Of a DNA stretch of 41,195 nucleotides, positions 22,032 through 33,003 are shown in pieces. Under the pieces are notes generated by a model. It ran no database searches and was not told the DNA's origin. It was given only the letters and a program-made list of their open reading frames with translations. The translations under genes and the position numbers were made by a program. Position 1 is the first letter of the stretch, and every line of letters starts with the position of its first letter. Source of the DNA: Syntrophales bacterium (GTDB taxonomy: Bacteria; Desulfobacterota; Syntrophia; Syntrophales; UBA2210); the NCBI GenBank assembly GCA_028718565.1, contig JAQULO010000012.1, positions 1 through 41,195 on the forward strand, given 5' to 3'.

Positions 22032-22604
22032 ATGAAAAAGCTATTATTATGTTTGGTAATGTTGGTCTTAAGTATGTCCGGGATGGCCGGAGCCACAGTG
22101 TATACTACTAACGGGTTGAACTATTTGGACGGTTCGAGTTGGTACACGTGGGGTATAAATCAGACCATACCGGAAGGTGAGACCATTCAGAGCGCCTCAT
22201 TAACCTTTTCGGGTATCTATGCTCCTTATGCAACCGATACCTTATACGTTGATCTCCTCAATTCCGTTACTCCGGCCGGTGTAAGCTCGATAAGCGGTAG
22301 CGATGTCGGAGATCATTTCGCCGGCATGGGTACCTCCTTGTTTGTCTATCAAGATGTCACACCCTATCACCCGGATACCCTGACTTATATATTCGGCGAT
22401 ACGCAGATTACCGCACTGAATGATTATGCCAGTGATGGAAATTTCGGCTTTGGACTCGATCCCGATTGCTGGTTTAAGAGCAGCGGCGTGTCGTTCAATG
22501 TCGCGACGACATCAGGAGGAGCACCCGTCCCCGAGCCGACCACCATGCTGCTCCTCGGGTGCGGTCTTGCGGGTCTGGGGTTTGTGAGAAGGAAAAAGAG
22601 CTGA
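22032..22604 (+). CDS. PEP-CTERM sorting-domain secreted protein
   Basis: 190-aa exported protein: signal peptide (1-21, MKKLLLCLVML... ending MAGA), a beta-rich Gly/Ser/Asp/Tyr body without recognisable domain, and a C-terminal PEP-CTERM tripartite tag (about 166-190): VPEPTT, a hydrophobic helix, and the basic RRKK tail. Exosortases cut such tags and release the protein to the cell surface or extracellular matrix. AGGAGG lies about 7 bases before the ATG. It stands alone between a palindromic regulatory site and a strong terminator. The exosortase encoded 10 kb away is of a short type and may not be its processing enzyme. Confidence 0.9.
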   Translation: MKKLLLCLVMLVLSMSGMAGATVYTTNGLNYLDGSSWYTWGINQTIPEGETIQSASLTFSGIYAPYATDTLYVDLLNSVTPAGVSSISGSDVGDHFAGMGTSLFVYQDVTPYHPDTLTYIFGDTQITALNDYASDGNFGFGLDPDCWFKSSGVSFNVATTSGGAPVPEPTTMLLLGCGLAGLGFVRRKKS

Positions 22605-29196: not shown

Positions 29197-29786
29197 GATA
29201 CGCGCTCCTTTCTATCATCCTTCTTCATATCGAGAAAATTTTTGATTATTCTCTTTCCACTTGGCGTCAGGATCGATTCGGGGTGGAACTGTATCCCTTC
29301 CACCGGATACCCCTGATGCCGCACTCCCATGATTTCTCCCTCCCGGGTCTCGGCGCTGATCTCAAGGCAGGACGGAACGGAATCCCGGCGCAAGAGCAGA
29401 GAATGGTAACGGCCCGCCTCAAATGGGCTGGGGAGCCCCCTGAAGATCGTCTTCCCATCGTTGATGATCCCGGAGGTCTTCCCGTGCATCAGCCTGCCGG
29501 CCCTGACAACATCGGCGCCGAAGGCGTAGCCGATGGCCTGGTGGCCAAGGCAAATACCCATAATGGGGATGGTTGCATGAAATCGCCTGATGACATCCAC
29601 GGTGATCCCTGCGTTTTCCGGTGAACCGGGACCGGGAGACAGGAAGATCGCATCGGGGTGCAGCCCTTCAATCTGATCAAGGGTGACCTCATCGTTGCGG
29701 TGGACCACGACCTCCTCGCCAAGCTGTCCGAGATACTGGACGAGGTTGTAGGTAAATGAATCATAGTTATCGATCATCAGAATCAT
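29193..29786 (-). CDS. trpG: Anthranilate synthase glutamine amidotransferase subunit
   Basis: 197-aa class I glutamine amidotransferase. Triad: Cys79 in GICLGHQ, His168 and Glu170 in FHPES. Supplies ammonia to TrpE. Overlaps trpE by 4 bases (ATGA) and trpD by 4 bases. The family also serves p-aminobenzoate synthase (PabA); a single copy may serve both, but this position identifies TrpG. Confidence 0.95.
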   Translation of the reverse strand: MILMIDNYDSFTYNLVQYLGQLGEEVVVHRNDEVTLDQIEGLHPDAIFLSPGPGSPENAGITVDVIRRFHATIPIMGICLGHQAIGYAFGADVVRAGRLMHGKTSGIINDGKTIFRGLPSPFEAGRYHSLLLRRDSVPSCLEISAETREGEIMGVRHQGYPVEGIQFHPESILTPSGKRIIKNFLDMKKDDRKERVS

Positions 29787-31291
29787 TTCTTTTCTCCATT
29801 GTTGTGGGTTATTTCAAACTGAGAGGCGGCCAGTCTGATGGCCTGCATCATTCCTTCGCCCTTGTTGACGGTCTCCTGATATTCCGCATCGGGGTCGGAG
29901 TCCGCGACGATCCCCGCGCCAACCTGAATGAAAATTCTGTCATCCTTGACGGTCATGGTCCTGATGGTGATGCACAGGTCCATATTCCCCGTATAGCTGA
30001 AGTAGCCGACGGCCCCTCCGTACGGGCCCCGCCGGGTCTGTTCCAGTTCGTCGATAATCTCCATGGCCCTGATCTTGGGCGCCCCTGAGAGGGTCCCCGC
30101 GGGGAAGGTGGCCTTCAGAACATCGAAGCAGTCCCTGTCTCCTGCCAGGTGGGCCTGGATGTTGGAGACGAGGTGCATGACGTGGGAATATCGCTCCACC
30201 GTCATCAATTGATTGACCTGAACGCTGCCGATCCGCGCGATCCTTCCCAGATCGTTTCTTCCGAGGTCGACGAGCATGACATGCTCCGCCCGCTCCTTCG
30301 GGTCCTGAAGGAGTTCGCCGGCCAGGGCACGGTCGTCCTGTTCGGTCTTCCCCCTCTTTCTCGTCCCGGCAATGGGCCTGAGTTCCACAACCCCCTCTTC
30401 AAGACGAACCATGACCTCCGGCGATGATCCGATGAGGGTCAGGTCGTCGGCCTTCAGGTAAAAGAGGTATGGGGATGGGTTGATATACCGAAGCGCCCGG
30501 TAGAGATCTACGGGGTCCCGGTCACTCTCCACCTCAAACCGCTGCGAGAGGACTACCTGGATAATATCCCCCGCGACAATATAGTCCTTGGCCCTCCTCA
30601 CTATAGTCTTATATTCTTCCGGTTTCATATTGGACTTAAGTAAGACACTTCCGGCCGTCTTTGTGGGGCGACTCTCTCCCTCAAGGGGGGCCTGAATCAT
30701 TCTTATCGTTTCTTCGATCTTTTCTATGCTCTCTTCATACAGGGCGTGAAGGTCTTCTCTCCCCCCGGTAAACGCGCAGGCCACGATCTTGATCGTGTGC
30801 CGGACATTATCAAATATGATCAGGGTATCGGTGATAAGGAAGACGGCATCATCGGTGTGAAGATCATCCGCAGCCCCGGCGGGCAGTCTTTCGAAATACC
30901 GGATCATATCATACCCGAAAAACCCTACTGCTCCGCCGTAGAATCGGGGGAGCCCCTCCACGTGAACGGGGCGGTATCGCGCCATCAGGTCTTTAAGAAA
31001 GCTCAGGGGATCTCCGCCATGCTCGTGGCGCCCTATATCTCCATTTTCCTGAATCAGGACATCCTTCCCTTTCACCCTGAAGATCACGCGGGGGTCGGAA
31101 CCTAGAAACGTGTAGCGGCCCCACTTCTCGCCCCCCTCCACACTCTCCAGGAGAAAGGCATGCGACTTGGAGCGCAACTTTATGAGGACCGAAACGGGAG
31201 TTTCCGTGTCGGCCAGGATCTCCCGGTAAACGGGGATCAGGTTTCCCTCTTGTGCAATTTTTTCAAATGTCTGAAACGATGGACTGTACAT
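29783..31291 (-). CDS. trpE: Anthranilate synthase component I
   Basis: 502 aa; makes anthranilate from chorismate with ammonia from TrpG. The N-terminal LLES motif (about 47-50, HAFLLESVEGG), part of the tryptophan feedback site in this family, is present, so allosteric inhibition by Trp is likely. Chorismate-site motifs IAGTRKRG, DLGRNDLGR, and GAPKIRAMEII are intact. It is the first structural gene after the attenuator; AAGGATG lies 4-9 bases before the ATG. Confidence 0.96.
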   Translation of the reverse strand: MYSPSFQTFEKIAQEGNLIPVYREILADTETPVSVLIKLRSKSHAFLLESVEGGEKWGRYTFLGSDPRVIFRVKGKDVLIQENGDIGRHEHGGDPLSFLKDLMARYRPVHVEGLPRFYGGAVGFFGYDMIRYFERLPAGAADDLHTDDAVFLITDTLIIFDNVRHTIKIVACAFTGGREDLHALYEESIEKIEETIRMIQAPLEGESRPTKTAGSVLLKSNMKPEEYKTIVRRAKDYIVAGDIIQVVLSQRFEVESDRDPVDLYRALRYINPSPYLFYLKADDLTLIGSSPEVMVRLEEGVVELRPIAGTRKRGKTEQDDRALAGELLQDPKERAEHVMLVDLGRNDLGRIARIGSVQVNQLMTVERYSHVMHLVSNIQAHLAGDRDCFDVLKATFPAGTLSGAPKIRAMEIIDELEQTRRGPYGGAVGYFSYTGNMDLCITIRTMTVKDDRIFIQVGAGIVADSDPDAEYQETVNKGEGMMQAIRLAASQFEITHNNGEKK

Positions 31292-31309: not shown

Positions 31310-31346
31310 TCAAAAATAAAAAAGGCCGTGAGTACTCACGGCCTTT
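31310..31346 (-). terminator. Second (proximal) terminator in trp leader
   Basis: A 26-bp perfect palindrome (31321-31346; arms AAAGGCCGTGAG) followed on the minus strand by TTTTATTTTT. It lies between the attenuator terminator and the trpE start, so readthrough of the first hairpin alone would not be enough to express the operon. Confidence 0.85.
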
Positions 31347-31359
31347 CTGGATTACAAAC

Positions 31360-31398
31360 AAAAAAGCCGCGGAGAACCGGAAAGGTCCGCCGCGGCTT
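31360..31398 (-). terminator. trp attenuator terminator (3:4 hairpin)
   Basis: Arms AAGCCGCGG (31398-31390) and CCGCGGCTT (31372-31364) with TTTTTT at the end; the loop region contains the 3' half of a proposed antiterminator. It starts 22 bases after the leader-peptide stop codon, the usual attenuator geometry. Confidence 0.85.
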
Positions 31399-31440
31399 GC
31401 AAACTGTATAATTCAGGGACTTACCGGCAGGCGAACCTCT
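31381..31440 (-). promoter_or_regulatory. Proposed trp antiterminator pairing
   Basis: AGAGGTTCGCC at 31440-31430 (leader codons 18-21) can pair over 11 bases, with two wobbles, with GGCGGACCTTT at 31391-31381, which overlaps the 5' arm and loop of the attenuator hairpin. Ribosome stalling at the Trp codons (31462-31454) would leave this pairing free; a ribosome at the stop codon would cover it. A further pairing, TTCAGGG with CCCTGAA around the peptide, may act as the protector stem. Confidence 0.6.
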
Positions 31441-31492
31441 CCTCTGAGATTTGCCACCACCAGCTATTCAACCCTGAAGTTATTTGTATCAT
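31421..31492 (-). CDS. trpL: trp operon leader peptide, three consecutive Trp codons
   Basis: A 23-codon ORF starting MIQITSGLNS, then three TGG codons in a row (31462-31454), then ten residues and TAA. It lies between a good sigma-70 promoter and two intrinsic terminators, directly upstream of trpE, which is the arrangement of a ribosome-mediated attenuation leader. A GAGAAG sequence just upstream is a fair ribosome-binding site. It regulates by its translation, not by its product. Confidence 0.88.
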   Translation of the reverse strand: MIQITSGLNSWWWQISEERFACR

Positions 31493-31522
31493 CTTACTTC
31501 TCACTACCCGCAATTTTCCGTC

Positions 31523-31551
31523 TTCATAACAGACCCGTTAAATCGTGTCAA
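31523..31551 (-). promoter_or_regulatory. Sigma-70 promoter of the trp operon
   Basis: On the minus strand TTGACA (31551-31546), 17 bases, TATGAA (31528-31523). The predicted start near 31516 leaves about 24 bases before the leader peptide. No TrpR-type operator is recognisable. The remaining interval up to 31793 holds an 8-bp inverted repeat (ATCAACGT at 31667-31674, ACGTTGAT at 31705-31712) and no gene. Confidence 0.75.
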
Positions 31552-31793: not shown

Positions 31794-32480
31794 CTATCCG
31801 TTCATGCAGCAATGTTTGTACTTCTTTCCGCTTCCGCACGGGCAGGGGTTGTTAGGGCCTGTGTCCGGACTCACGCGAGGAGTCTTCATCATTTGAATCA
31901 GTCCCACCGTCACGAGCACGACAAGCAGCGCCAGAAACTGTCTTCCGCCGTTGCTGAAAAAGTTATCCATCATCAGGCGTATCTGCCCGGACAGGGAACC
32001 TACGGGAAACCCTTTTTCTATCCTGCAGATGAAAAAAACAGGGATGTCGATGGACGCCGCTGCGATCATAAGCGGCACAGCTGTCAGAAGTCCCCATCCC
32101 CGCTCTCTGAAAGACAGCGCCGGCCAAGCCAGGAGAAGTGAAAAAATGATTATGGGCTGGATATACAGCGCACTGGCGACCGTATTCAGTTTTACTTGTT
32201 TGCCATACTGGGGAATGCCGATCTTGTCGGCGATTGCCCTGTTGATCTTTACTATGTAATATATGCTGTTTCCTTCCGTCTGTGTCTCCTCCATACCGTA
32301 AGACAGGATTTCATATTCCGGGTGAACCAGCTCTATTTCGAACGCGAAGATGGGAAGCAGTATTCTGGTATAGACCGAACCGAACAGGTAAAACAGCGCC
32401 GATACCAGCAGAAAAGCGGATATGAAACGTATGATGAATCCCCGAATGCCTGTCATGGGTTTCTTAATCTCTTCATTCAT
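31794..32480 (-). CDS. Exosortase-associated membrane protein with C-terminal SEC-C zinc motif
   Basis: 228 aa. Four predicted helices (about 18-42, 102-122, 128-152, 180-198) with a periplasmic loop of some 60 residues after the first; this puts both ends in the cytosol. The last 18 residues, NPCPCGSGKKYKHCCMNG, are a SEC-C motif: Cys213, Cys215, Cys224 and Cys225 in the CxC-x8-CC pattern of the zinc tail of SecA. Its start overlaps the exosortase stop by 8 bases (ATGAATGA), so the two are translationally coupled. The membrane part resembles the partner proteins found beside XrtH-type exosortases; the zinc tail on such a protein is unusual. The function is inferred only from neighbours. Confidence 0.75.
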   Translation of the reverse strand: MNEEIKKPMTGIRGFIIRFISAFLLVSALFYLFGSVYTRILLPIFAFEIELVHPEYEILSYGMEETQTEGNSIYYIVKINRAIADKIGIPQYGKQVKLNTVASALYIQPIIIFSLLLAWPALSFRERGWGLLTAVPLMIAAASIDIPVFFICRIEKGFPVGSLSGQIRLMMDNFFSNGGRQFLALLVVLVTVGLIQMMKTPRVSPDTGPNNPCPCGSGKKYKHCCMNG

Positions 32481-33003
32481 CCGACTGGGCGAAATTCGTT
32501 ATCCACGCAATAAAAAACAGTACGCCTACGAAGATGATAAAGGTCTGGCCAACGTAGACATGCGCCAAATCAAACATGCCCGGCCTGTATTTCAGTATGT
32601 AGTAGAGGACCACTATCCTGATAAGATTTGCAATATATATGAGTAATGATCCTACCAGGACACCCGACATCTTTTGTTTTATTCCCAGAGGGAAGGCACA
32701 TAATGCCGCCGTGATCAACAGGATTCCTTCTATCCCCTCACACCCTTGTGCTATCCTGATGGTAAAGCTACCGGAACCTATGGTGTTGCCATTGGAAAAA
32801 CTTTTTTCGCCGGGAGTAATGAAATTTATAAGCCTGGAACTGACTCCAGCGTTTAACTTGTGAACCAGCAGGGGTGACGTGTATGACCTTACGGAATAAT
32901 GTAACAGCTGCAGGGCGAGAAAAAAAAGAATGAAATAGAGGACAAATCGCACCTCACTTTTATAGGATTTAAGAAATATTCTTATTCTTAATGAATTTTT
33001 CAT
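32473..33003 (-). CDS. Short exosortase (XrtH-like), protein-sorting transpeptidase
   Basis: 176-aa polytopic inner-membrane protein of the exosortase/archaeosortase superfamily. The catalytic triad is visible: Cys88 in QGCEGIEG, Arg129 in NLIRIV, and His148 in LAHVYVGQ. About five helices. Its small size, without the long N-terminal helical region of XrtA/EpsH, and its coupled membrane partner suggest the XrtH group, whose cargo usually carries IPTLxxWG-CTERM tags; that subgroup assignment is tentative. No cargo with such a tag is in this window; the one PEP-CTERM protein is at 22 kb. No clear ribosome-binding site precedes the ATG. Confidence 0.85.
   Translation of the reverse strand: MKNSLRIRIFLKSYKSEVRFVLYFILFFLALQLLHYSVRSYTSPLLVHKLNAGVSSRLINFITPGEKSFSNGNTIGSGSFTIRIAQGCEGIEGILLITAALCAFPLGIKQKMSGVLVGSLLIYIANLIRIVVLYYILKYRPGMFDLAHVYVGQTFIIFVGVLFFIAWITNFAQSDE

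Follow-up and report, generated by a model that had tools for sequence, protein, structure and literature searches.

A tandem-terminator trp leader in the Syntrophales with a probable relay between its two terminators

Background

Attenuators are usually drawn with a single terminator, and a strong second terminator in front of a biosynthetic operon raises the question of what it does there. Such a terminator precedes trpE in the stretch of DNA analysed here (the window, 41,195 nt of contig JAQULO010000012.1 of a Syntrophales bacterium). An initial annotation had read this locus as a trp attenuator modelled on the enteric one, with a doubled terminator that was called not standard, and had suggested that the 3′ arm of the first terminator can also pair with the 5′ arm of the second, by which antitermination at one might be relayed to the other. 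Its overall description of the leader was accurate and was confirmed on the minus strand; we consider here whether the two terminators are indeed coupled.

Results and discussion

The trp leader and its surroundings

The leader precedes the trpEGDCFBA operon (Table 1), of which trpE, trpG, trpD, trpC and trpF were assigned by NCBIfam, and trpB and trpA were read from their translations. The annotated promoter is present as a consensus match, with a weak −10 sequence (4/6 consensus positions), and was not among the hits of a simple promoter scan of the window. The 23-codon ORF with its three consecutive TGG codons was found as described, as were the attenuator hairpin (T1, regions 3 and 4) and the second terminator before trpE (T2, regions 5 and 6), the stem of which (31343-31324) is a perfect palindrome of 20 nt followed by a T6 U-run (31323-31318). 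The leader folds with an MFE of −80.6 kcal/mol (z = −4.55 versus 200 shuffles), and the duplex of regions 2 and 3 (2:3), annotated as a possible antiterminator, reaches −31.3 kcal/mol. The pairing between the T1 3′ arm and the T2 5′ arm (4:5) had been counted as nine pairs with one bulge; the duplex is real and is longer than that count, being extended by the T1 U-run and the T2 A-run, with which it amounts to −19.2 kcal/mol, although in the window alone it is unexceptional, with 7% of shuffled T2 stems pairing equally well. A hairpin of regions 1 and 2 (1:2) is seen in the MFE structure of the window; it does not appear to be a general feature among the relatives, many of which have short ORFs that leave no obvious space for one, with the Trp codons only a few codons past the start. 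The proposed likeness to enteric attenuation is in this respect only partial.

Table 1. Features of the trp leader and operon in the window
Feature	Position	Strand	Basis or remark
Promoter-like −35 TTGACA	31551-31546	−	Consensus match only; 17 nt spacer to −10
Promoter-like −10 TATGAA	31528-31523	−	Consensus match only
Leader peptide ORF, 23 codons, MIQITSGLNSWWWQISEERFACR	ATG 31492 to TAA 31421	−	Sequence; translation predicted
Sensor, three consecutive Trp codons, TGGTGGTGG	31462-31454	−	Sequence and conservation
Region 1 (TTCAGGG)	31472..31478	−	MFE structure; pairing potential with 31418-31412
Region 2, antiterminator 5′ strand	31423..31442	−	Overlaps ORF end and stop codon
Terminator T1 (regions 3 and 4)	31396-31366	−	Followed by T6 U-run 31365-31360
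Region 4, T1 3′ arm with U-run	31360..31380	−	Proposed partner of region 5, blocking T2
Terminator T2 (regions 5 and 6) with 5′ A-run	31324..31346	−	
Region 5, T2 5′ arm with A-run	31346-31335	−	
trpE, first gene of trpEGDCFBA	29783..31291, start 31291	−	NCBIfam TIGR00564, 566 bits
trpEGDCFBA operon	extends to 24702	−	

A role of T2 as a bidirectional terminator serving a convergent gene was rejected, since the upstream gene is on the same strand. An exosortase-family gene (32473-33003, best match XrtM, under its cutoff) is located upstream of the trp leader, and the same window encodes a small secreted protein with a PEP-CTERM-like signal at its end (22032-22604).

The two-terminator leader is conserved in the order

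A strong trpE match was obtained in 109/155 genomes of the same order, which in our sample is the only order of its class. The sequence upstream of trpE was read in 106 of these 109 genomes, four of them cut by contig ends, leaving 102 readable. Comparison with relatives, proposed earlier as a check, bore out both the leader and its pairings: the leader ORF, T1 and T2 were found directly upstream of trpE in 98/102 genomes. The doubled terminator, which the initial annotation called not standard, is the rule in this order and occurs in further families of its phylum as well. The four exceptions comprised a genome with no leader upstream of trpE (G044), one with the leader approximately 1.1 kb farther upstream (G138), one with T1 and no T2 (G062), and G011. 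In the leader of G011 (L118), region 2 and the T1 5′ arm are gone, the T1 3′ arm with its U-run comes straight after the WWW codons, and T2 is complete; this leader is possibly a collapsed attenuator with 4:5 as its only antiterminator, or else decayed or misassembled. A further assembly, G018, carries two near-identical trp leaders on contigs C98 and C286 (L006 and L124), one of them with additional sequence between T2 and trpE, representing either a duplication or a mixture of strains.

In each of the 102 leaders examined, an in-frame start, a stop before T1 and a run of 2-4 Trp codons are present, and the first Trp codon is located 36-45 nt from the stop in 98/102. The features of a classic trp attenuator were thus recovered, namely a leader ORF with consecutive Trp codons (its translation being predicted), an intrinsic terminator between this ORF and the trp genes (T1, and also T2), and a mutually exclusive antiterminator which, judging by conservation and predicted folding, would be set by the position of the ribosome. 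The reading as a trp attenuator is strongly supported, because the ORF, the Trp codons, 2:3 and 3:4 are kept through the order.

T2 is conserved in sequence and complementary to T1

An exact match to the T2 hairpin, GGCCGTGA..TCACGGCCTT, was found in 14 genomes, in 12/14 of which it is at the trpE leader, with only two matches elsewhere (G027 and G008). On this distribution T2 is not a generic terminator, since such a terminator would not preserve its sequence, and the hairpin is almost unique to the trpE-leader site. The base of T1 (GCCGTGG/CCACGGC) and that of T2 (GCCGTGA/TCACGGC) have a common core, and therefore the T1 3′ arm is able to pair with the T2 5′ arm. That this pairing goes beyond chance follows from the comparative data and not from the window alone. 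In a set of 103 leaders (from the 98 genomes, with the second G018 copy and four leaders from another family), region 4 pairs with region 5 in 103/103, and the duplex of region 4 with T2 ranges from −13.0 to −28.8 kcal/mol (mean −17.8), compared with a mean of −10.8 kcal/mol once the T2 base pairs are shuffled; individually, 66/103 leaders are within the best 2% of their stem shuffles. At the single freely varying position of the core, 4:5 has A-U in 76 leaders, G-U in 20, G-C in 7 and A-C in none, whereas the mirror pairing of regions 3 and 6 (3:6) has 13 mismatches at the same position.

Covariation was scored in an alignment of 59 non-redundant leaders, with 500 shuffles for each named structure. 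The score of 4:5 was above all but 1 of 500 shuffles, while for 3:6, which served as internal control, its columns and relatedness being those of 4:5, 425/500 shuffles scored as high; for 2:3, and for 3:4 together with 5:6, no shuffle did (0/500 each). As the core is strongly conserved, the covariation is based on few independent changes. When arms were swapped between families within the order, the cognate arms were favoured for the antiterminator 2:3 (p 0.003), and less clearly for 4:5 (p 0.06 for the arm to 0.19 for the whole T2), as its core hardly varies. Swapping between attenuator types, with too little sequence variation, gave p 0.11 for 4:5. Over 30 families, including divergent members of the phylum, cognate 4:5 did better than swapped (p about 0.002, compared with p 0.07 for the 3:6 control). 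In family f28, T1 reads CCATGGC and T2 reads GCTATGG, and both have therefore been altered together, and in families f5 and f9 of the order each half of T2 is complementary to the T1 arm GUGCUCCACGGC. Together these comparisons indicate that 4:5 complementarity is kept by selection, the signal being weaker within the order alone. The relay put forward in the initial annotation came through the comparative tests, with a pairing that shows conservation and sequence specificity and outperforms the 3:6 control, and may be called well supported, not proven.

Two leaders have unusual T2 arms. In L250 (G065), T2 has been rebuilt around another outer stem and its core 3′ arm is broken, yet a nine-base match between its 5′ arm and the T1 3′ arm is retained (CTTCACGGC / GCCGTGAAG). 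In L017 (G027), a C in the T2 5′ arm is opposite an A in its own 3′ arm, a mismatch in 5:6, and this C pairs with a G of the T1 3′ arm.

Coupled terminators in other operons and families

A covariance model of the leader was used to find further attenuators. Within the window's genome, coupled T1/T2 follow a WWWW leader upstream of a TrpB-like gene (NCBIfam NF009057) as well as a FFSFFGFF leader upstream of the gene for an ABC transporter periplasmic binding protein (Peripla_BP_6). This Phe-rich type is represented by L310 (G000:C26:20215-20339) and 17 relatives, and since a Phe-rich leader with coupled terminators precedes the gene, Phe supply probably controls the Peripla_BP_6 transporter. 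Over the 7-base core of these 18 Phe leaders, 4:5 consists of 116 Watson-Crick, 6 wobble and 4 mismatched pairs, and T2's own 5:6 of 111, 11 and 4, respectively; leaders of the trpB2 type have an A-C mismatch inside 4:5. In relatives, coupled T1/T2 also follow a Val/Ile-rich leader before acetolactate synthase, a FWFSFYYY leader before DAHP synthase and a Phe leader before an AMP-binding ligase. In family f5, WWWW or WWW leaders with coupled terminators (L312, L328, L345 and L350) precede a Phenol_MetA_deg outer-membrane-like protein, which might be a porin for the uptake of aromatics.

Single terminators accompany another two WWW leaders, L323 and L320 (G000:C84:4415-6057), one located upstream of a phenylacetate-CoA-ligase-like gene and the other upstream of the gene for indolepyruvate ferredoxin oxidoreductase alpha; the presence of WWW leaders before these genes suggests that Trp attenuation controls a salvage route from arylacetates to tryptophan.

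Beyond the order, further families of the phylum also carry the trp version of the tandem leader. At the trpE loci of distant phyla, only L039 and L040 have a WxW leader, each with one terminator, and the weak covariance-model matches at such loci were not convincing. A scan of the phylum with TGGTGG..GCCGYGG..GGCCG was too loose, giving mostly chance matches in coding DNA, but nonetheless exposed true cases in family f31.

Folding in the order of synthesis

Folding with the Trp-codon region sequestered had been named as a check on the attenuator reading, and its outcome agreed with that reading. With the starved state represented by blocking the region through ten bases past the second Trp codon, 2:3 was predicted before region 4 emerges in 103/103 leaders, compared with 3/103 when the ribosome was placed at the stop codon, and 2:3 was at least as stable as 3:4 in 85/103. 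With 2:3 held, 4:5 was predicted before region 6 emerges in 103/103. Once region 6 is made, the predicted equilibrium prefers 5:6 over 4:5 in 87/103, the mean shortfall of 4:5 relative to the full T2 being about 2 kcal/mol, and the relay must therefore act kinetically, by trapping; in these models the kinetic 4:5 step is the weakest step of the relay. Equilibrium folding of full transcripts in the starved state preferred 3:4 in 102/103 and was set aside, as it leaves only the folding of prefixes, in order of synthesis, informative.

Proposed mechanism and alternative explanations

On the anatomy, conservation, complementarity and predicted folding order established computationally, we propose that the leader is a ribosome-mediated trp attenuator whose relay has two stages, a reading to which we give a probability of roughly 0.7. 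With stalling, termination and regulation taken by analogy from the classic system, Trp starvation would stall the ribosome, which we infer to translate the leader ORF, at the TGG codons, leaving region 2 free to pair with the emerging region 3, so that T1 (3:4) could not form. The freed region 4 with its U-run would then, as we infer for the cell, pair with region 5 and its A-run before region 6 is made, thereby disabling T2 (5:6) as well and allowing RNA polymerase to reach trpE. When Trp is plentiful, the ribosome would reach the stop codon and cover region 2, and 3:4 would form and terminate transcription; for polymerases that pass T1, region 4 would already be occupied in 3:4, so that 5:6 would form and terminate them. 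One sensor would in this way act on two terminators in series, from which less leak would be expected with induced expression undiminished.

The obvious duplication of the stem core also fits a classic attenuator at T1 followed by an uncoupled, fail-safe T2, which would trim read-through by a fixed factor and owe its likeness to T1 to a duplication. A partly efficient T2 could be tolerable to the operon, and 5:6 is the more stable fold at equilibrium; nevertheless we consider this explanation unlikely, as an uncoupled duplicate should keep its pairing yet lose its sequence, and the core is held across 30 families. Moreover, it is 4:5 that keeps its pairing and not 3:6, and in the Phe leaders the T2 5′ arm fits the T1 3′ arm no worse than it fits the 3′ arm of T2 itself. 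Coupling is further favoured because a strong, constitutive T2 just upstream of trpE would block the operon and defeat its induction.

Alternatively, trpE may be regulated by T1 only, with the T2 hairpin also bound by a protein or the attenuated RNA acting in trans as an sRNA with two 3′ ends, a role reported for the Sinorhizobium trp leader. The conserved A of T2 (GCCGTGA) is not always explained by 4:5 (paired in 14/59 leaders), and a trp leader peptide is reported to have functions in trans (PMC7298713). Such functions predict neither the preference for 4:5 over 3:6 nor the coupled T1/T2 in unrelated attenuators of different sequence, and we hold this explanation to be quite improbable. A gate with two inputs, where T1 reads the position of the ribosome and T2 another signal such as polymerase speed or NusA, has a precedent in the tandem attenuators of mgtCBR, which respond to different signals (PMC3641672), but is very improbable here, with no second ORF, aptamer or Rfam match between T1 and T2 and a T1-T2 spacer that is short and not conserved.

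Returning to the coupled reading, the leaders described above may well form a class at the level of the phylum, the relay attenuator, a proposal we hold with somewhat less confidence than the mechanism at trpE. In this class one leader peptide would govern two serial terminators via 2:3 and 4:5 versus 3:4 and 5:6, and the design would be reused for Trp, Phe, Ile/Val and aromatic operons, giving tighter repression with induction kept. A large and mostly uncultured group of bacteria appears to use a serial, coupled attenuator as its standard for several amino acids. If true, this would explain the strong second terminator in front of a biosynthetic operon, provide a design rule for finding leaders in other genomes (successive terminator arms with a common core), represent a low-leak RNA switch, and allow leader peptides to assign amino-acid signals to orphan transporters and oxidoreductases.

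Comparison with known systems

Resemblance to the Rfam trpB motif RF04312 is confined to its two hairpins, the second of which is a terminator, and its location sometimes upstream of trpB; the motif is from Firmicutes and Fusobacteria (PMC11109978), and identity was rejected at 26.7 versus a gathering score of 59 bits. No Rfam family reached its gathering score in the window with covariance models, and T-box and Trp leader were absent from the window matches even at E up to 5. An amino-acid attenuator with two coupled terminators was not found described in the literature covered, and as this was confined to open-access papers the absence is weak evidence.

Individual elements of the arrangement have precedents. 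In the erm(K) macrolide attenuator of Bacillus, a leader peptide on which ribosomes stall is stated to precede two Rho-independent terminators adjacent to each other (PMC4335068), and this attenuator is as such a precedent for two-terminator ribosome-mediated attenuation; it belongs to another phylum, and its stalling is induced by an antibiotic. The mgtCBR leader of Salmonella likewise has more than one attenuation unit, but with two ORFs and two signals that act additively (PMC3641672), whereas here one sensor would serve two terminators. The rimP-leader of Gammaproteobacteria has tandem terminators, the second one upstream, and a possible antiterminator, but the passage on it (PMC2965389) mentions no amino-acid leader peptide and reports the two motifs as inverse rather than the same.

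A close parallel is E. coli trpL, which has a leader peptide with tandem Trp codons, competition of 2:3 with 3:4 and trpE downstream, and a comparable balance of energies when calculated in the same way (2:3 −15.6 versus 3:4 −13.4 kcal/mol). Compared with trpL, the leader here has longer Trp runs and a region 2 that extends over the stop codon, and a 1:2 hairpin does not appear to be general; a single terminator separates trpL from trpE in E. coli, whereas here there is a second one, which would be coupled via 4:5. The sensor and the first stage are those of textbook trp attenuation, to which a second terminator, probably coupled to the first, is added.
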